Source of the DNA: Halorubrum ruber
GTDB taxonomy: Archaea > Halobacteriota > Halobacteria > Halobacteriales > Haloferacaceae
Length of the DNA stretch: 64,000 nucleotides
Reading direction: 5' to 3'
Assembly: GCF_018228765.1 (NCBI RefSeq)
Contig: NZ_CP073695.1
Coordinates: forward strand, 620,001 to 684,000
Shown: positions 5,393-56,120 of the stretch, piece after piece
Layout of the letters: each line of letters starts with the position of its first letter
Position numbering within the stretch: the stretch's first letter is position 1
Notes under the pieces: model-generated
Database searches by the model: none
What the model saw: only the letters and a program-made list of their open reading frames with translations
What the model was told of the DNA's origin: nothing
Position numbers and translations under genes: made by a program

Positions 5393-5700
5393 CGGTGGCG
5401 CGTGCCTGCGAGCGGCCGCCCTCGGCGGCCGCGAGACAGCACCACGCGAGGGAGTCGGCCGACCGGAGGGAGGCCGACGAGGCTGGGGAGGCGTGAGGTG
5501 CGGGGCTGTGCGTGGGGGTGGGATTCAAAGGGGCAGTCGCGAGGACGAAGCACGGCGCAGTAAGCACCGCAGCGAACGGAGTGAGCGAGGAGCGCAGCAA
5601 GCCGCGCGAGTCCTCGCGGCTGGGGCTTTGGCGGTGTTCGTCGTCGCTCCGCGATCCGCCATTTATAAGCGAGCGACTGGGGCTTTGGAGGAGTTCACCC
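5393..5700 (+). repeat. Dispersed structured element, copy A
   Basis: Forward copy of the four-member family. Order: 5' box GGTGGCGCGTGCCTGCGAG (about 5395-5413); hairpin P1 (8-bp arms 5413-5420/5424-5431, loop CTC); P2 (GTCGGCC/GGCCGAC, near 5454 and 5472); central box GAGGCTGGGGAGG (about 5479); CAAAG-GGG; P3 5' strand 5534-5546; variable domain; P3 3' strand 5610-5622; GGG-CTTTG. P3 pairs 13 bp with one G-T wobble. A TATA-like TTTATAAG and a second copy of the tail GCGACTGGGGCTTTGG follow at about 5662-5686; this tail matches the P3 5' strand better than the true 3' strand does. No protein is encoded. Confidence 0.85.
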
Positions 5701-5758
5701 GGCAACGCCGGTCACTTATAGAAGCACGACCTCGCTCCGCTCGGTCGCGTCCTCCTCG

Positions 5759-8700
5759 TTACTCCGCGACTGCCTCCTCGACGATCTCGATCTCCTCCTC
5801 GGTCAGGTCGTAGAGGTCGTAGACGATCTCGTCGATGAGGCGGTCGGTTTCTTCGATCTTCGCGTCGAGTTCGTCAGCGCGCGCTTTCGTCTCGACGTAG
5901 CGGTCGAGGTCGTCGGCGGCGTCGTCGGGGTCGGGCAGCGTGATCGCCTTCAGGCGGTCGACGAGCGAGTTCGTCTTGGTGGCGTTCTCGCGGAAGCCCG
6001 CGATCTCGTCGTCGACGGCGACCGGGACGAACGCCGCGACGAGCGCGGCCTCGCGCTCGGAGCAGTCGACGAGCGTGAACGCCTCGTGGAACTCCGTCTC
6101 GGTGTAGCCGTACGTGTCGGTCTCGTGGGCGTCCTCGTCCTCCGGCTTGTACCGCGCCGTCGCGGAGATCGTGACGCGCGTCCCGTCGCGCTCGGCGCGC
6201 ACGTCGCCCACGCGGAGCTTCTCGTACTCCTCCGTCGTCGCGTCGAGGACGTTCGACGCGCTCGGCTGGAAGAGCCCGACGTCGGGGAGGGTCGGGCCCT
6301 CGTCGTAGTTGCCGAGGTAGTCGAGAAGGTCGAGGTTGAGAACAGTTCTTTGGTTTTTAAATTTAGATATCCTTTTTGCGAGTTCGGATAAACTATATTC
6401 TGTTTTACCATCTGTTTTGTCAGCCTCGGAGGGAATGGGGAGGTCGTCAAGACTACCTTGTGTGGTGTAGCCAGTTCTGGATCGCTGTTCTGTTTGCCAG
6501 TATTTAGACAATCTCGAATTCAGTATTGCTGTGAGCCGATGAATATCTATATCCGAACTACGTGGTTTAAGTAGCGTGATATCACGCCTCTCGTAATATC
6601 CTTGATTTTCTACCGCATATGGTTGCCAATCATTCCCCCAGTTAGAATATACTATTTTTGGCGTCTCGAATAACTGCTCATTCCGTGGCCACTGGAGACT
6701 ATACCAGTTTATTTTCCCATTCTTGACTTCTCTTCTCTCCTCCAACTTGGATCTATATTGATTAAGATGCTCCTTGATTCGGGGATACTGGTCAATATCT
6801 GTGTTTGAAGTAATATACAGAACATACAATTTACTTGGATATGATATATGAAATTCTGAGATATTCGAATTACGGTATGCTGGTTTGAGCAATTGGTGCC
6901 CATCGTCAATTCCAATACGATCTAAATCCTCCTTATCCAGTAGAAATACACCGTCTCCAATCTCTACACTTTCGTTTTCATACTCTTCGTACGATTGTTT
7001 TGTAACCCTATCCGGATTCGGAACAATTCCTTGGTAGGATTCGAAGAAATCAGAAAGTGTATTTTCAGTATCCGGTATCTCTAACGCACCCTTTGCTAAT
7101 CCTTTTATACCGTACCATTCGCTACCATCAGTAGGCAAATTGATTTTATCAGTTTCATACTCTTCTTGATAAAATAGTTTCTTATCACCTAACAGAGACT
7201 CCGCGACAGCGTCTTGTTCATAAGTATCTGAACGAATATACGAGAACGTGGTAGTATCTATATCAGAATTGTCAAATTTGTATATGAGATTTTCTTGCCC
7301 GGGAGCCTGGTCGAATACTGTGAAGCCATCAAATTCAACGATCTCGCTAATATTTGTTCTATTTATTATTTCACGACGGAGGTTTTCTGCGCTATCTGCC
7401 TCTGGCCAATATGCTGTAGTAATCATAGAAGATGCCCCAGAGTTGTTGGAGAGTTCAATTCCCAGCAGCACGAAGAAATATAACATATCCATCCTCCCCT
7501 GATAACATTCTCTAACGTGCGAACACTTTCGTAAGAAATCAAATTCCTCTTTACGTTCCTTTTCTCCTACATACGGCGGATTCCCGATCACCGCGTCGAA
7601 TCCGGCGTCGGCCTTGCGGCCGCCGTCCTCGTCGTAGAACGCCACCGGGAACTCCAACTCCCAGTGGAAGAAGCGCTCGTCGGCGGCCATCGCCTGCGCG
7701 CTTTTAAACCAGTCCTGCCCTTCGATCTCGCTCCACGAGTCGGCGCGGAGGGCCTCCGCCATGCGCTTGTCGGCGTCGCTCGGCACGTCGAGGCCGAACC
7801 GCTCGGCGGTGTGGACGTTCGCCATCGCCAGCAGGTGCCGGTAGAGGGGGTCGTCACGGACCGCGTCGTACACGTCCTCCATCTCCTTCGCGTCCGCGAG
7901 CGTCTCGTTGTCGATGGCGAGCAGACTCTGGAACCGGTCCATCACGTGTTCGAGCGCCTGCTGGCGCGTGTGCGCGAACGACTGCTCTAAGGTCAACTGC
8001 CCGTCGTTCGCGTCGGCGTCGTCACCGTTGGCGAGCACGTCCTCGATGTCGCTGCCGACCAGCGAGTTTCCGGTTTTTAAGTGGTGGTCGAGGAACGCGA
8101 GCGGCTGCTCCGCGGCGAGCGTCCGCAGCCACAGCGACACCTTCGCCAGCTCGGTCGCGAGCGGATTCAGGTCCACGCCGTAGATGCACCGCTGGGCCAC
8201 CTTCCGGCGCGCCCAGTTGATGTCGCGCTCTTCGTCGACCGTCTCGACGCCCTGCTGGGCCGCCTGCCGCTCCTGCGCGTCGATGATCTCCCGCGCGAGG
8301 TAGTCGACCGCGCTCGTGAGGAAGTGCCCGCTCCCCATCGCCGGATCGAGGATTTTTAACTCGAACACGCGCTCCGCGAACTCGGCCGCGAACCCGCCCT
8401 CGCTGTATGAGTCGTAGCCGAGCAGATCCTCGCGGATGTCGTCGACCAGCGGCCCGAGCGTCTCGTCGACGATGTACTCGACGACGTACTCGGGCGTGTA
8501 GTACGACCCCGTCGCCTTGCGCTCGCCGCTCCCGGTCGTGAGGTACACCTCGCCCGGCTCGACCGCGACGTCCGCGGAGTCGGCGTCCGGGTCGCTCTCG
8601 TCGCCCTCGTCGTCCGCCGCGCCCTCCTCGCCGCCCTCGACCGGCACGTACTCGCCGTCGTCGAGCGCCAGCGGCTCGTCCGCGACGTGAAGCTGGTACT

Positions 8701-12695: not shown

Positions 12696-12824
12696 TCGAC
12701 TATGTACGATTATTCGCCCTCACGGTTTATCACCGTCGGAATCGGCGGATATGGGCTCTCGGGAGCGCCCACCCGACCACAATGTCTCGGCGGCGGACGG
12801 CGTCGCCGATCGCGACCGATCCGA

Positions 12825-13700
12825 CTACGAGTCGTCGCGTCGCCCGGCCGCCTCGTCGTCCTCGTCTTCGTCCCCGTCGCCGACGGTTTCCTCGACGGTC
12901 TTCTCGACCGTTTCCTCGACCTTTTCGCCGACGGTTTCTTCCACGGTCTCCTCCACCGTTTCTTCGACCTTTTCGCCGACGGTCTCCTCGACGGTCTTCT
13001 CGACCGTTTCCTCGACCTTTTCGCCGACGGTTTCTTCCACGGTCTTCTCGACCGTTTCCTCGACGGTTTCGCCGACTTTCTCCTCGACGGTTTCGCCGAC
13101 TTTCTCCTCGACGGTTTCGCCGACTTTCTCCTCGACCGTTTCGCCGACCTTCTCCTCGACGGTTTCGCCGACTTTCTCCTCGACGGTCTTTTCGACGGTT
13201 TCGCCGACGGTGTCTTCGACTTTCCCCGTGACCTCCTCGCTGACGGTGTTGCTGACGTCGTCGGCGACTTCGCTGACCTCCTTGTTGACGGTCTCGCCGA
13301 CGCTCTTTTCGACCTCCTTGCTCACCGTCTCCTCGACCTTCTCGCCGACGGTCTCCTCGACGGTCTTCTCCACTTCCTTGCTCACCGTCTCGCCGACCGT
13401 CTTCTCGACCTCCTTGTTGACGGTTTCGCCCACGGTCTTCTCGACCTCCTTGTCGACGGTCTCGCCGACGCTCTCCTCGACCTGCTTGCCGACCTGGTCC
13501 GCCACCTCGCGGGTCATCCAGTCCGGGTCGAACCGCGCCATCTTCCAGACGACGTGGATCACGTACGAGGCGAACACCCCGATCCCGAACGCGATGGCCA
13601 CGTCGTTCTGCTGGGTGGTCGCGATGAGGACGATCGACGCGGCGATCAGCGCGCCGTACGCGATGTCGGTTATCGCGTCCACCCGCGCCGGACTCACCAT
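12825..13700 (-). CDS. Membrane-anchored protein with a long tetrad-repeat helix
   Basis: 291 aa. Two membrane helices near the N-terminus (about residues 11-29 and 33-51, [17 protein letters not shown]) are followed by about 200 residues of degenerate repeats such as EEKVGETV and ETVEKTVE. Valine or another aliphatic residue recurs every fourth position and nearly everything else is Glu, Lys, Thr or Gly. It ends in a short Asp/Glu-rich tail. The repeat is visible in DNA as 24-base units (about 13070-13180). The pattern suggests an extended amphipathic or coiled helix reaching from the membrane. Function unknown; no enzymatic motif. Copy number probably varies between strains. Confidence 0.75.
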
Positions 13701-22515: not shown

Positions 22516-22570
22516 GTCAGCGAGCGCGGATCGGCAGTTAACACCGCCGGATCCTCAGCCGATCATTTAT

Positions 22571-22977
22571 AAATAGCTGAGCCCAGAACGACATCGGACG
22601 CCTCCAAAGCCCCAGCCGCTCGCTTATAAATAACCGATCGTGGATCGGCGGCGAACTCCTCCAAAGCCCCAGCCGCTCGCTTATAAATAACCGATCGTGG
22701 ATCGGCGGCGAACTCCTCCAAAGCCCCAGCCGCGAGGCCGCAGTACGCTCGTTGTGCTCCTCGGTCGCTCACTACGTTCGCTCCCTGCGGTGCTTACGTC
22801 GCCTACTGCGGCCTCGCGGCTGCCCCTTTGAGTCCCGCCCCGCACGGCACCGCCCCGCACCTCACACCTCCCCAGCCTCGTCGCTGGCACCCTCCGCTTC
22901 GCTCCGGGAGCCAGCGACTCCCTCGCGCGTGCTCCTCGCGACCGCCGAAGGCGGCCGCTCGCAGGCACGCGCCACCG
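22571..22977 (-). repeat. Dispersed structured element, copy B, with a 57-base tandem array
   Basis: Reverse-strand copy. P3 is a perfect 19-bp helix: one strand at 22804-22822 (CAGCCGCGAGGCCGCAGTA read on the minus strand), the other at 22727-22745. P2 is GTCGCTGGC/GCCAGCGAC (near 22912-22920 and 22879-22887). P1 has loop TTC. The 3' tail is tandemly repeated: units of 57 bases begin at 22601, 22658 and 22715, each with the CCAAAGCCCCAGCCGC tail, the first two also carrying a TTATAAATAA box. It lies between aIF1A and the RimK-like ligase. Open frames here are by-products of the repeat. Confidence 0.85.
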
Positions 22978-27035: not shown

Positions 27036-28513
27036 AGAAAGCCTCGCGCTTTAGCGCGGGGATGAATCCGACACTACCCTTCACAGTCCGCCGTTCGATG
27101 GCACGGCTGGATATTCCACGCTGAGCAAATACACAGCTTCAAGTAAGTTTGTCTACATAGGTTACGTATGGCGAAACAGGTCGTTACCCGCACCTACACC
27201 GCTTCCATACGGAACCAGTCGCGGGTACAAGACGACCTTGATTCGCTCGGGTTCGCAGCCAGTAAGCTCTGGAACGTCGGACGGTGGACGTGTAGTCGGA
27301 TCTGGGATGAAATCGATCACATCCCGAACCACAACGAACTCACCACGTACCTCAAAACCCACGAACGCTATGATGACCTGCATTCGCAGTCAAGTCAGCG
27401 AGTCCTTCAAGAACTCGCTGAGGCGTTCAACGGCTGGTACGGCAAACGACGTAACGGAGACACGAGAGCGAACCCGCCCGGCTACCGTAAACACGGCGAC
27501 GAACACCCGCGTTCCACAGTCACGTTCAAAGCCGCTGGCTTCAAACTCGACACCCAGTACAACCGCGTCCGACTCTCAAAAGGATCGAACCTGAAAGAGT
27601 ACTGGTCGGATTTTGTCCTGTGTAAGTACCAAACTCGCCCCGACGTTGACCTCTCCGCCGTGGAGAACGTCCAACAAGCCAAGATTGTGTGGACGGGCGA
27701 CGAATGGGAACTACACTTCGTCTGTAAGGTCGAGATCGACGTGGATGAAGCCCCCGGTGAGAAGACGGTGGGTGTTGATCTCGGTATTAACAACTTTGCC
27801 GCGCTCGCGTATGAAGACGGTCACAGCGAGCTGTACCCGCTGAACTGCTTGAAACAGGACGACTACTACTTCAGCAAGCGAATTGCTCGGTGTGACGACT
27901 CGAATTCCGATCAGGCCACCCGGCTGAACCAGAAGAAGTCGGCCCGCCGCACCTACTACTTCCACACCCTCTCGAAACATATTGTCCAGCGGTGTGTTGA
28001 CGAGGAAGTTGGAACTATCGTGGTGGGAGATCTCTCCGGCATCCGTGAGGATGAGGAGAACGCCGAGTCAAAGGACTGGGGCATGCACGGGAATCTTGAT
28101 CTGCACTCGTGGGCATTCGACCGTTTCACAGACCTTCTCGAATACAAAGCCGAAATGGAAGGTGTCACGGTTGAACAAGTGTCTGAGCGGGATACCTCGA
28201 AGTCGTGTTCGTGCTGTGGCCGGAAGTGTGACGCGAACCGTGTTGAACGTGGACTGTATGTCTGCGATGAGTGCGGGACAGTGGCGAACGCGGACGTGAA
28301 CGGTGCTGAGAACATTCGGCAGAAAGTATCTCCAAGTCCCGCCACGGATGGCGGTGATAGGAGTAACGGCTGGTTGGCACAGCCATCGACGTTCTTGTTT
28401 GACAAGGAAACTGGTGCGTTTGTACCTCAAGAACAGGTCACGTCGTAAACCACAATATCCCAACCCAGCGGTGCGGTGCCGTGGGAATCCTCGCGCTTCA
28501 GCGCGGGGAGGAT
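27036..28513 (+). mobile_element. IS200/IS605-group (IS1341-type) element carrying tnpB, no tnpA
   Basis: A single tnpB gene in distinctly lower-G+C sequence sits between pgk and lrp. A right-end-type hairpin lies at 28488-28512 (CCTCGCGC TTCA GCGCGGGG, then AGGATGTCAA), ending next to the lrp stop codon. A near-copy of the same hairpin (CCTCGCGC TTTA GCGCGGGG, 27042-27061) occurs before the gene. The left boundary is uncertain: it may be the left hairpin or lie nearer 27100. No Y1 transposase is present, so the element is non-autonomous. Confidence 0.75.
27168..28448 (+). CDS. tnpB: TnpB-family protein (RNA-guided nuclease homologue) with catalytic Glu apparently replaced by Gly
   Basis: 426 aa, full length. 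RuvC-like domain: D204 in GVDLGINN, then VVGDLSGIRE where the family's catalytic Glu would sit but G287 is found, and D376 in NADVNGAENIRQK. Spacings fit ISDra2 TnpB (D191/E278/D361). A four-cysteine zinc finger (CSCCGRK ... CDECG) lies between the last two motifs. Known TnpB proteins use a guide RNA from the element's 3' end to cut DNA and favour element retention. With Glu missing this copy may be cleavage-deficient. G+C is lower than neighbours, consistent with transfer. Confidence 0.88.
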   Translation: MAKQVVTRTYTASIRNQSRVQDDLDSLGFAASKLWNVGRWTCSRIWDEIDHIPNHNELTTYLKTHERYDDLHSQSSQRVLQELAEAFNGWYGKRRNGDTRANPPGYRKHGDEHPRSTVTFKAAGFKLDTQYNRVRLSKGSNLKEYWSDFVLCKYQTRPDVDLSAVENVQQAKIVWTGDEWELHFVCKVEIDVDEAPGEKTVGVDLGINNFAALAYEDGHSELYPLNCLKQDDYYFSKRIARCDDSNSDQATRLNQKKSARRTYYFHTLSKHIVQRCVDEEVGTIVVGDLSGIREDEENAESKDWGMHGNLDLHSWAFDRFTDLLEYKAEMEGVTVEQVSERDTSKSCSCCGRKCDANRVERGLYVCDECGTVANADVNGAENIRQKVSPSPATDGGDRSNGWLAQPSTFLFDKETGAFVPQEQVTS

Positions 28514-30701: not shown

Positions 30702-31016
30702 CTTCAAAGCCCCAGTCGCGACGGCTCGCGCGCCTTGCTGCGCTCCTCGCTCGGTCGCTGTTGCTCCCTCGCTGCGGTGCTTGCTGCGGCGTGCTTCGCC
30801 CTCGCGACTGCCCCTTTGAGTCCCACCCCACACCGCTCAGCACCGCAACCTCACACCTCCCCAGCCTCGCGGTTCGCGCTCTCCGAGCGCTCACCGCGTC
30901 CAGCGAGAATCGAAGATTCTCTGGCAGCCGGCGCGTAGCGCCGGCGACCTCGCGGGCTGGCTCGCGGCCGCCGATGGCGGCCGCTCGCAGGCGCGCCACC
31001 GCCTGCCATTTATAAA
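30702..31016 (-). repeat. Dispersed structured element, copy C
   Basis: Reverse-strand copy between the convergent glnA and nrdJ genes. P3 core CAGTCGCGA/TCGCGACTG (30802-30810 with 30713-30721) is perfectly paired although copies B and D have C-G where this copy has T-A. CAAAG-GGG and GGG-CTTTG flank it. P2 is CGCGGT/ACCGCG. Two inserted triloop hairpins: 30905-30921 (7 bp, loop GAA) and 30927-30945 (8 bp, loop GTA). On the element's 5' side a TATA-like TTTATAAAT (31008-31016) sits just before the GGTGGCGCG box. Confidence 0.85.
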
Positions 31017-53679: not shown

Positions 53680-54924
53680 TTACGTCAGGGTCCCGACGCC
53701 GATGAGCCGCCAGCGCGCGCCGACGCGCCGATTGATCGCGATCTGGGCGCCCTCCTCGGCGCAGACGGGCCGCTTGAGGCTCACCTCGCACTCGCCGTCG
53801 CGCGCGCTCGTCACGGCGCCGACCGTCGTCGCCGTGCCGACCGTGAGCATCAGCGGCTCGCCGGTGCTGATCTCCTCGATGTCGCTCTCGCCGCTCTCGT
53901 CGTCCTCCTTCCCGACGACGCGGTCGAGGAGGTCGACTTTCATCTCGAACTCCTCGCGCGTCGGCGGGAGGGTGCCGGGCTCGCCGGCGACCTGCCCGGC
54001 GAGGGCGTCGCCTTTCGTCAGGCTCGGGTCGAGCCCGGTGCCGACGCCGAGCAGGCCGCCGGGGTGGGCGGTCTCGACGTCGCGGTCGCCGGCCTGGAGC
54101 GACCGGACGGTCGTCTCCAGGGGGCGCCACTCGGTCTGGCCCTCCTCGTCGACCTCGCGGCCCGGGCGGATCTCTAAGCCGTCGCCGACCGACAGCTCGC
54201 CGCTGACGAGCGAGCCGCCGACGACGCCGCCCTTGAGGTCCTCGGCGCTCGCGCCCGGTCGGTTGATGTCGAACGAGCGGGCCGCGTACATCCGGGCGCT
54301 CTCGCCCGGGTCGCGGTCCGGCGTCGGGATCTCCGTCTCGATGGCGTCGATGAGGAGGTCGAGGTTGACCTCCTGTTGGGCCGAGACGGGGACGATCGGC
54401 GCGTCCTCCGCGACGGTGCCCTCGACGAACTCCTGGATCTGCTCGTAGTTGTCGACGGCGCGGTCGCGGCTCACGAGGTCGACCTTGTTCTGGGCGATGA
54501 CGATGTTCTCGATCCCGATGAGATCGAGCGCCATCAGGTGCTCTTCCGTCTGGGCCTGCGGGACGTCTTCCGTCGCGCTGACGACCAGGACCGCGCCGTC
54601 CATGATCGAGGCGCCCGAGAGCATCGTCGCCATCAGCGTCTCGTGGCCGGGCGCGTCGACGAACGACACGGTCCGGATCGGCTCGCTCTCGGAGCCGTCC
54701 TCGCACTCCTCGTCGACGGTGTAACACTCGGGCGCGTCGACGCCGGGGCAGCGTCGGAACGTCGCGTCCGCGTACCCCAGCCGGATCGAGATGCCGCGCT
54801 TCATTTCCTCGCTGTGCTGGTCGGTCCACGAGCCGGACAACGCCTGTACCAGCGTGGTCTTCCCGTGGTCGACGTGACCGACGAGACCGATGTTCACCTC
54901 CGGTTGTGTGTTGGCTTCAGTCAC
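53680..54924 (-). CDS. eif2g: Translation initiation factor aIF2 subunit gamma
   Basis: 414 aa GTPase that delivers initiator Met-tRNA. G1 [13 protein letters not shown] (about 13-25), G2 region [14 protein letters not shown], a zinc-knuckle loop with [17 protein letters not shown]3 DAPGHE (about 91-96), G4 NKVD, and beta-barrel domains II and III ([20 protein letters not shown]). GTG start at 54922-54924 is backed by a strong Shine-Dalgarno GGAGG (complement of 54932-54936), unusual in a genome that is mostly leaderless. First gene of the PIN-rpo7-spt4 unit. Confidence 0.96.
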
Positions 54925-55082: not shown

Positions 55083-55565
55083 GTTTATAAATAGTGCCGC
55101 GGTGCGGTGGCGCGTGCCTGCGAGGCCGCGTTGCGGCCGAGCAGCACGCGCGAGGGACGCGGTGAGCGAGGGCGACCGGAGGGGGCCCGAGCGAACCGCG
55201 AGGCTGGGGAGGCGTGAGGTGCTGTGCGGGGCGGTGCGGGGCGGGACTCAAAGGGGCAGCCGCGAGGGCGGCGCAGGCGACGTAAGTAGCGTGGCGCTAC
55301 GCGCCACGGAAAGCCGGCGGCGAAGCCGCCGGCGACACCGCAAGGAGCGAGCAGCGCGAGCGACTGGGGAGCGTGGTTCGAGAGAGCGAAGCTCTCTCGT
55401 CATCACGAGACGCCTTCGGCGTCTCGAACGACAACGAGCGTGCGCCGCCCTCGCGGCTGGGGCTTTGGCGGTGTTTGCCGTCGATCCGGTATTAGCCATT
55501 TATAAGCGAGCGGCTGGGACTTCGGCGATGTTGTTCGCGTCACGGCCGGTATGATTTATAAATAA
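55083..55565 (+). repeat. Dispersed structured element, copy D (longest)
   Basis: Forward copy between eif2g and the DUF5810 gene. TATA-like TTTATAAATA (55084-55093) precedes the GGTGGCGCG box (55106). Central box GAGGCTGGGGAGG near 55199-55211. P3 is a perfect 19-bp helix, 55257-55275 with 55441-55459 (CAGCCGCGAGGGCGGCGCA strand). The loop inside P3 (165 bases) holds four triloop hairpins: 55291-55307 (7 bp, loop TAC), 55313-55333 (9 bp, GAA), 55379-55399 (9 bp, GAA) and 55406-55426 (9 bp, TTC). A TTTATAAG box and a diverged tail copy follow at about 55499-55525, and ATTTATAAATAA at 55554-55565. Confidence 0.85.
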
Positions 55566-55628: not shown

Positions 55629-56120
55629 ATGGGATACGCGTGCCCGGTCTGTGACACCCCGCAGCGCGACGGCGAACACCTCGCGCACCACCTCGCGTTC
55701 ACGGCGATGCTCCACGGCGGCGACCACGCCGACTGGCTCGACGAGCGCGTCGACGACTGGAGCGAGCGAGAGCCCGCCCAGCTCGCGGCCGAGGTGACCC
55801 CGCACGCCGACGACGCCGAGTACGACGAGGTGTTCGAGGACACCGTCCCGCGCGGCCGCCCTGATGTGGGGATGGGATCGGGCGGAGGCGCGGCCGGGCA
55901 CGAACACGCTGGTCACGACCACGCCGACCACGGGCACGGCGCCGACCCCGACCCCGCCTCCGGAGCCGGCGTCCCGGACCCCGAATCCGTCGACGACCCC
56001 GAGGTCGCCGAGGCGCTGCGCGAGGCGCGCGAGATGACCCGGAAAGCGCAGGAACAGGAGAACGACACCGACGCCGACGCCGACGACCCCGACTCCGCGG
56101 ACGACGACCGCGACTCGTAA
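55629..56120 (+). CDS. DUF5810 protein with zinc-finger-like N-terminus
   Basis: 163 aa. MGYACPVCDTPQRDGEHLAH followed by HLAFTAMLHGGDHADWLDER: a C-x2-C plus two His pattern suggests a zinc site at residues 5-22. Then a His/Asp/Gly-rich linker (HEHAGHDHADHGHG) and an acidic tail with a charged helix. The neighbouring DUF5809 gene, 36 bases on, is its usual partner in haloarchaea. The His-rich segment could bind metal. Function unknown. Confidence 0.8.
   Translation: MGYACPVCDTPQRDGEHLAHHLAFTAMLHGGDHADWLDERVDDWSEREPAQLAAEVTPHADDAEYDEVFEDTVPRGRPDVGMGSGGGAAGHEHAGHDHADHGHGADPDPASGAGVPDPESVDDPEVAEALREAREMTRKAQEQENDTDADADDPDSADDDRDS

Follow-up and report, generated by a model that had tools for sequence, protein, structure and literature searches.

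The DNA analysed here is a window of 64,000 nucleotides, part of the 3.02-Mb single-contig genome of Halorubrum ruber. It contains four copies (A to D) of a repeated element, of which copy D is intergenic, lying between the aIF2gamma gene (identified by eye; minus strand, start near 54924) and an ORF at 55629. The features needed below are listed with positions counted from the first base of the window, the basis of the call being given in brackets.

5393–5715, plus strand: element copy A (sequence comparison)
22521–22977, minus strand: element copy B, with three 57-nt tail units
27395/27396, plus strand: empty site, between these two bases, in a tnpB-like ORF (27168–28448); a relative (L204) carries a 54-bp two-hairpin unit there
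30705–31000, minus strand: element copy C, with unit W, an X-type unit in reverse complement, lying between P1 and P2
55084–55093, plus strand: TATA box TTTATAAATA upstream of copy D (sequence)
55110–55151, plus strand: P1 hairpin, GCGCGTGC..GCACGCGC, with tandem GA/GA and triloop GTT at 55130–55132 (folds, tandem GA count)
55158–55200, plus strand: P2 hairpin, CGCGGT..ACCGCG, with tandem GA (folds)
55199–55219, plus strand: most conserved stretch, CGAGGCTGGGGAGGCGTGAGG, the family signature (52 of 52 Halorubrum genomes)
55249–55467, plus strand: P4 long stem, CAAAG-GGGC-AGCCGCGAGGGCGGCGCA .. TGCGCCGCCCTCGCGGCT-GGGG-CTTTG, enclosing both inserted units (covariation, folds)
55290–55335, plus strand: unit X, made of hairpins 1 and 2 joined by the linker GAAA and followed by GA (copy comparison)
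55290–55308, plus strand: copy D hairpin 1, 8 bp, loop TAC
55313–55333, plus strand: copy D hairpin 2, 9 bp, loop GAA
55344–55365, plus strand: apical P4, in which tandem GA separates helices of two pairs; loop AGC (folds; same place in 33 aligned copies)
55374–55432, plus strand: unit Y, made of hairpins 3 and 4 joined by the linker TCATCA, with flanks TGGTT..AACGA (copy comparison)
55379–55399, plus strand: copy D hairpin 3, 9 bp, loop GAA
55406–55426, plus strand: copy D hairpin 4, 9 bp, loop TTC

Elsewhere in the window there are an array of 12-bp steps at 12772–13416 (ca. 34 overlapping matches, apparently coding) and a stretch at 6001–8000 with a G+C of 0.505 against ca. 0.69 around it, suggesting acquired DNA.

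The 21-base signature CGAGGCTGGGGAGGCGTGAGG was searched in 52 Halorubrum genomes with up to two mismatches, its backwards sequence serving as control. It matched in every genome, 9 to 195 times in each (median 78.5), the 195 being those of Halorubrum ruber, and the backwards control gave no match in 50 of the 52. BLAST detected the element in 28 of 39 relatives and 6 of 17 genera; outside Halorubrum, the matches listed include Haloparvum, Halobellus and Halorussus. It was absent from the 50,697 phage records searched and its exact motif had no match in IMG/VR, on which grounds presence in viruses was rejected; with no phage match, and with matches in 4 of 72,556 plasmid records, each in part, the family appears to be largely chromosomal. 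The place beside aIF2gamma held the signature in 16 of 30 relatives (own genome included) and lacked it in 10, while four further relatives showed, by eye, just remains or masked stretches. As this copy is common to several relatives, single copies must be old enough for sharing between species. The hairpins differ even where the element copy is shared. In all these figures the copies are kin to each other and were sampled by means of a conserved motif, so that counts do not represent independent events.

Larger arrangements were seen around some copies. Five loci (L243, L246, L247, L248, and L249) have ca. 650 bp in common with inverted ends of the GAGCGATAGCGGGAGT type, which suggests a MITE-like carrier unit; some element copies seem to ride in such a larger inverted-end unit, and part of the copying may be DNA transposition. 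Tandem units of 57 nt occur 3' of the element at 22521–22733 (copy B), at 55450–55540 (copy D) and at 59–420 of locus L005, where there are seven consecutively. Each repeats GGCTGGGGCTTTGG and ends in a TTTATAA-like box, and these tail units may be promoters, possibly antisense ones too.

Comparison with base copies, that is, those without inserted units (ca. 240–270 nt), resolved the four hairpins of copy D into two inserted two-hairpin units, X placed after GTAAG and Y after GAGGAGCG. The first-pass annotation of this DNA had given the four loops correctly, as well as the 9 bp of three stems, but had assigned 7 bp to the first stem, which has 8; the loops that it read in copy C (GAA and GTA) and in P1 hairpins (CTC, TTC, ATC, and GTT) match the sequence. 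Unit X is also present in copies at 1292720, 2075163 and 2692747 and is missing from base copies. We read a total of 60 distinct hairpin pairs of unit type from the copies, a count in which some pairs include a neighbouring core hairpin. They are ca. 48–60 bp long, fall into types X, W, Y, Z and others, and are seen either way round at several sites, as expected of the interchangeable modules that had been proposed. Nested units were seen by eye in L222, L228, L208, and L220.

The hairpin pattern of unit Y (with a variable gap) was found in 45 of the 52 Halorubrum genomes, the backwards control giving none in any of them. Units were located in tnpA (G009, G062), in tnpB (L204) and, by eye, near tnpB 3' ends, but in the own genome all 17 Y matches are either inside an element or no more than 600 nt away from one, as are 21 of the 30 loci fetched with the Y pattern. 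One locus from that search (L206) resembles a chance match. Direct comparison of L204 with the window tnpB revealed, at this one site, a clean insertion of 54 bp with no target duplication. Further units lie, by position, inside the Y1 transposase matches of two genomes (G009, C14; G062, C14). Their presence in tnpB and Y1 genes indicates that the units are mobile DNA and not solely RNA ornaments, and clean insertion, loop inversion (see below) and the use of both orientations bear out the earlier suggestion of a DNA-level process acting on the modules. The IS200 tnpA genes of L119 (near 1450) and L231 (near 1501) share the insertion point of a two-hairpin unit of 54 nt, with opposite loops (GGA and TCC, respectively); the unit adds an in-frame TGA, the frame being judged by eye. 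In L237 (near 1501) a W-type unit lies directly downstream of an apparent tRNA gene, again by eye.

The nearest described relatives in kind of these units would seem to be the SMR-A repeats of Haloquadratum walsbyi, which are reported to be small, transposase-free, present in many copies and devoid of target duplication, and to occupy in many cases the palindromes of PATEs and of IS605-type elements, their mobilisation being called enigmatic (PMC3119063). The units are likewise small, transposase-free and, at the one site where L204 was compared with the window tnpB, without target duplication. However, SMR-A as described there measures ca. 110 bp and has prominent inverted ends and near-identical copies, whereas the units, at ca. 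48–60 bp, vary in arms and loops, and their ends (TCGTT/AACGA) amount to 5 nt at best, in the Y type. They also differ in consisting of two triloop hairpins and in being housed mainly in one RNA-like element.

Three-base loops are characteristic of the element. In a set of 80 loci they were found in 58 of 95 perfect hairpins of at least 8 bp inside the element, against 46 of 445 outside (odds ratio 13.6), and in a larger locus set in 199 of 292 inside, so that the uniform triloops expected from a few copies were confirmed by a survey of loop lengths. The closing pair was 5'C-G3' in 196 of these 199 and in 14 of the 46 outside triloops. Where neighbouring hairpins had equal loop size, this was 3 nt in 59 of 65 pairs inside and 10 of 33 outside. 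By class, 91 of the 199 loops were purine-N-A, 65 the complementary T-N-pyrimidine and 43 others. The stable GNA loops closed by C-G that had been pointed out are thus only part of the picture: closure holds nearly throughout, and GNA or its complement TNC accounts for 121 of 199 loops (our sum over the loop list), the remainder being other loops. Similarly, the stems had been called unrelated; several stem types do exist, but they group into few recurrent families common to many copies and species. Chance as the source of the triloops was rejected on the inside/outside counts, the C-G closure and the tandem GA described below. We gave up the idea that only the element has triloop hairpins, as pairs with equal 3-nt loops and the tnpB insertion occur outside it.

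The loops can be inverted. A given stem was found with both a loop and its reverse complement in 20 of 235 distinct loop pairs, more than in any of 2000 shuffles, for which a mean of 5.3% was expected. The P1 stem CGGCCGCC keeps its loops in one sense (ACC, CCC, ATC, CTC or TTC in 26 of 28, with one GGG), whereas unit loops occur in both senses (78 vs. 54), from which the core loops appear to be strand-bound and the unit loops not. A loop that flips to its reverse complement between unchanged arms is what template switching would predict. Inversion of a spacer between inverted-repeat arms by template switching has been described in yeast, including a change of tcc to gga in a 10-bp hairpin with a 3-nt loop (PMC8604942). 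In L230 (near 1501) P4 appears, by eye, to carry its inner part inverted with respect to the long-stem arms, a large-scale counterpart of the loop flip.

Other signals distinguish the two strands. In 73 of 161 copies the 60 nt preceding GGTGGCG contain an exact TTTATAA or TTATAAA, and 70 of these 73 7-mers fall at −25 to −10 from that motif (2.6% per window expected); the exact 7-mer is missing in the other 88, which limits the RNA reading developed below. The usual archaeal distance from TATA box to start would place the start near P1. A spacing of −26 is reported for archaeal TATA boxes (PMC8707807). Among copies no longer than 300 nt the plus strand (copy D sense) folded better in all 35, which came from 42 with both ends (mean −150.1 vs. 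−123.7). RNAalifold gave a poor consensus on the whole element because of unequal copy lengths, and a set of P4 stems of modal length was used instead. Of 104 found, 34 had this length and 33 were aligned, one (L156) being left out for its other register; P2 was not used in the pairing statistics, as its register mixed two sub-types. Among the 39 pairs of P4, 99.1% of cells were paired, compared with 88.7 in shuffled and 26 to 51 in slid controls, and double changes were found at 20 of them, 133 in all vs. 34 shuffled and at most 11 slid. In the outer 12 pairs (89 distinct arm pairs) the Watson-Crick fraction was 0.908 vs. 0.666 shuffled (maximum of 1000, 0.706), with G.T outnumbering A.C 37 to 17 (p 0.009); in A1, summed from the covariation table, the figures were 34 and 3. 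P4 therefore shows the covariation above both shuffled and slid controls that was taken to mark a structured RNA. The weight of this is limited in that template switching can generate part of such covariation without selection (PMC8794818).

The two-by-two internal loops beside the apical stem are more telling in this respect. In 235 copies, 130 of 170 such loops were 5'GA/5'GA and none TC/TC, while outside the element there were 5 GA/GA and 5 TC/TC in 635. Since template switching makes complementary arms and cannot retain one fixed mismatch, tandem GA is the strongest sign of a selected, folded plus strand. At gathering score copies A to D had no match in Rfam, and a lax Rfam search of copy D returned two matches only, far below threshold; a tRNA or known RNA family was rejected, no match in the tRNA and Rfam searches supporting it. 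A structured RNA is the best reading of the element, the folded strand being the plus strand of copy D, and on the TATA box and the strand signals it is probably transcribed.

On balance we consider it probable that these hairpins are modules through which a structured RNA element of high copy number, equipped with a TATA box, has been expanded, the added material being two-hairpin DNA units for which Y1 is not needed. The element would be transcribed from the TATA box just upstream of P1 and act as RNA, its plus strand folding into P1, P2 and the long covarying P4, with tandem G.A throughout and C-G closed triloops as caps. Base copies lengthen by the entry of two-hairpin DNA units at few sites and in either orientation. 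These units may be transposase-free mobile repeats, tolerated because a self-contained hairpin pair can join the folded RNA without disturbing the remainder. Template switching during replication would keep the arms perfect and invert the loops, and C-G closed triloops would be retained as the shortest stable caps.

There are other possible explanations. One would be a repeat acting as DNA only, with no RNA function, in which template switching and cruciform extrusion keep the stems perfect, perhaps in a REP/BIME-like role in chromosome structure. Loop inversion, the nested units, the inverted inner P4 of L230 (by eye) and the largely chromosomal distribution would all fit this, and DNA too forms stable sheared G.A pairs and triloops with C-G closure. 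We nevertheless think it unlikely, given the tandem GA (130 of 170, with no TC/TC), the excess of G.U over A.C, the TATA box at a fixed distance and the CGGCCGCC loops of P1 that keep one sense (26 of 28) while unit loops flip. Template-switch hairpin evolution as described (PMC8794818, PMC8604942) resembles what we see in its spacer inversion between inverted-repeat arms. However, it concerns how mutations arise rather than an element, and leaves the constant 3-nt loops, the C-G closure and the tandem GA unexplained.

Another alternative is that the element is a non-autonomous, PATE-like derivative of IS200/IS605, its RNA being an omegaRNA-like guide or a transposon end on which TnpB/TnpA act in trans. 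PATEs are reported to be abundant in haloarchaea, are non-coding and palindromic as the element is, and can be transcribed, strongly so in the case of one in a Halorubrum virus (PMC3119063, PMC10544981). Units also lie within tnpA and tnpB genes, and the window itself contains a tnpB with a sot0042 RNA. Yet Rfam matched the element with none of its omegaRNA or sot families, and no sequence relation to PATEs was found; BLAST similarity to the PATE of Halorubrum virus HRTV-DL1 was limited to shared words of 11–13 nt, and identity with it was rejected. As far as its ends could be placed, the element showed no match to IS605 ends and no near-terminal IS605 palindrome, and a subgroup has inverted ends. 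With some copies holding orthologous places as well, we regard this derivation as decidedly unlikely. The sot0042 match (sense overlapping transcript, IS1341-type tnpB) lies at 28324–28509, within and past the tnpB-like ORF.

The first-pass annotation had suggested recognition of the hairpins as DNA by a Y1 enzyme as an alternative to RNA, looking for support to a cognate Y1 gene in the host, and for refutation to element-rich hosts without an HUH enzyme. Searching the 52 Halorubrum genomes with the Y1_Tnp profile (PF01797) gave one match in the own genome and matches in 41 genomes in all. None was found with this profile in the other 11, which hold 16 to 130 element copies; among them are the element-rich G019, G016, G044, and G005 (130, 128, 112, and 109 copies, respectively), and seven of the 11 have Y hairpins. 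For Y1_Tnp, the refuting observation named in that annotation was thus made in these element-rich hosts. The number of Y1 matches was correlated neither with that of Y-type hairpins (Spearman 0.04) nor with that of element copies (−0.03), and Y hairpin number tracks element copies (rank correlation 0.78). We infer that Y1 transposase is not needed for the units, although an earlier Y1, or an HUH protein from another family than PF01797, may have contributed. REP palindromes carry at their foot a conserved tetranucleotide of the GTAG/CGTC type. That a Y1/REP-associated tyrosine transposase recognises and moves the hairpins as single strands or cruciforms, RNA being irrelevant, agrees with the C-G closed and often GNA triloops, the insertion without target duplication, the units in Y1 and tnpB genes and the presence of Y1_Tnp in most genomes, but we consider it decidedly unlikely in view of the Y1-free hosts, the missing correlations, the size of the listed Y1 matches (mostly ORFs of 126–150 aa, read as ordinary IS200 enzymes), the fact that no fixed target tetranucleotide was apparent in an unsystematic look, and strand signals that favour a transcript, namely the TATA box, the tandem G.A and the excess of G.U over A.C. 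The REPIN/REP and RAYT (Y1) systems, as reported, share with the element paired palindromes, high copy number and intergenic location (PMC3116915, PMC2817692). The element differs in showing no Y1 dependence in 52 genomes and in being large and strand-specific, with a TATA box.

We return, therefore, to a structured RNA element enlarged by DNA units. The family is absent from Rfam, the RNA catalogue searched, and no description of the element was found in the open-licence literature searched. More tentatively, and as a possibility that we would not yet call probable, it could represent a new genome-wide class of archaeal RNA with up to ca. 195 copies, the habitat of transposase-free two-hairpin expansion segments. 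Such segments would insert either way round into the junctions of folded RNA genes and into one another, with template switching and the C-G triloop rule preserving their ability to fold. With ca. 195 copies of some 240–360 nt, the element would rank among the most frequent non-coding features in an archaeal genome of 3 Mb. Its hundreds of paralogues form a natural series for module insertion, arm homogenisation and loop inversion, and such a series would make the origin of RNA expansion segments directly testable.
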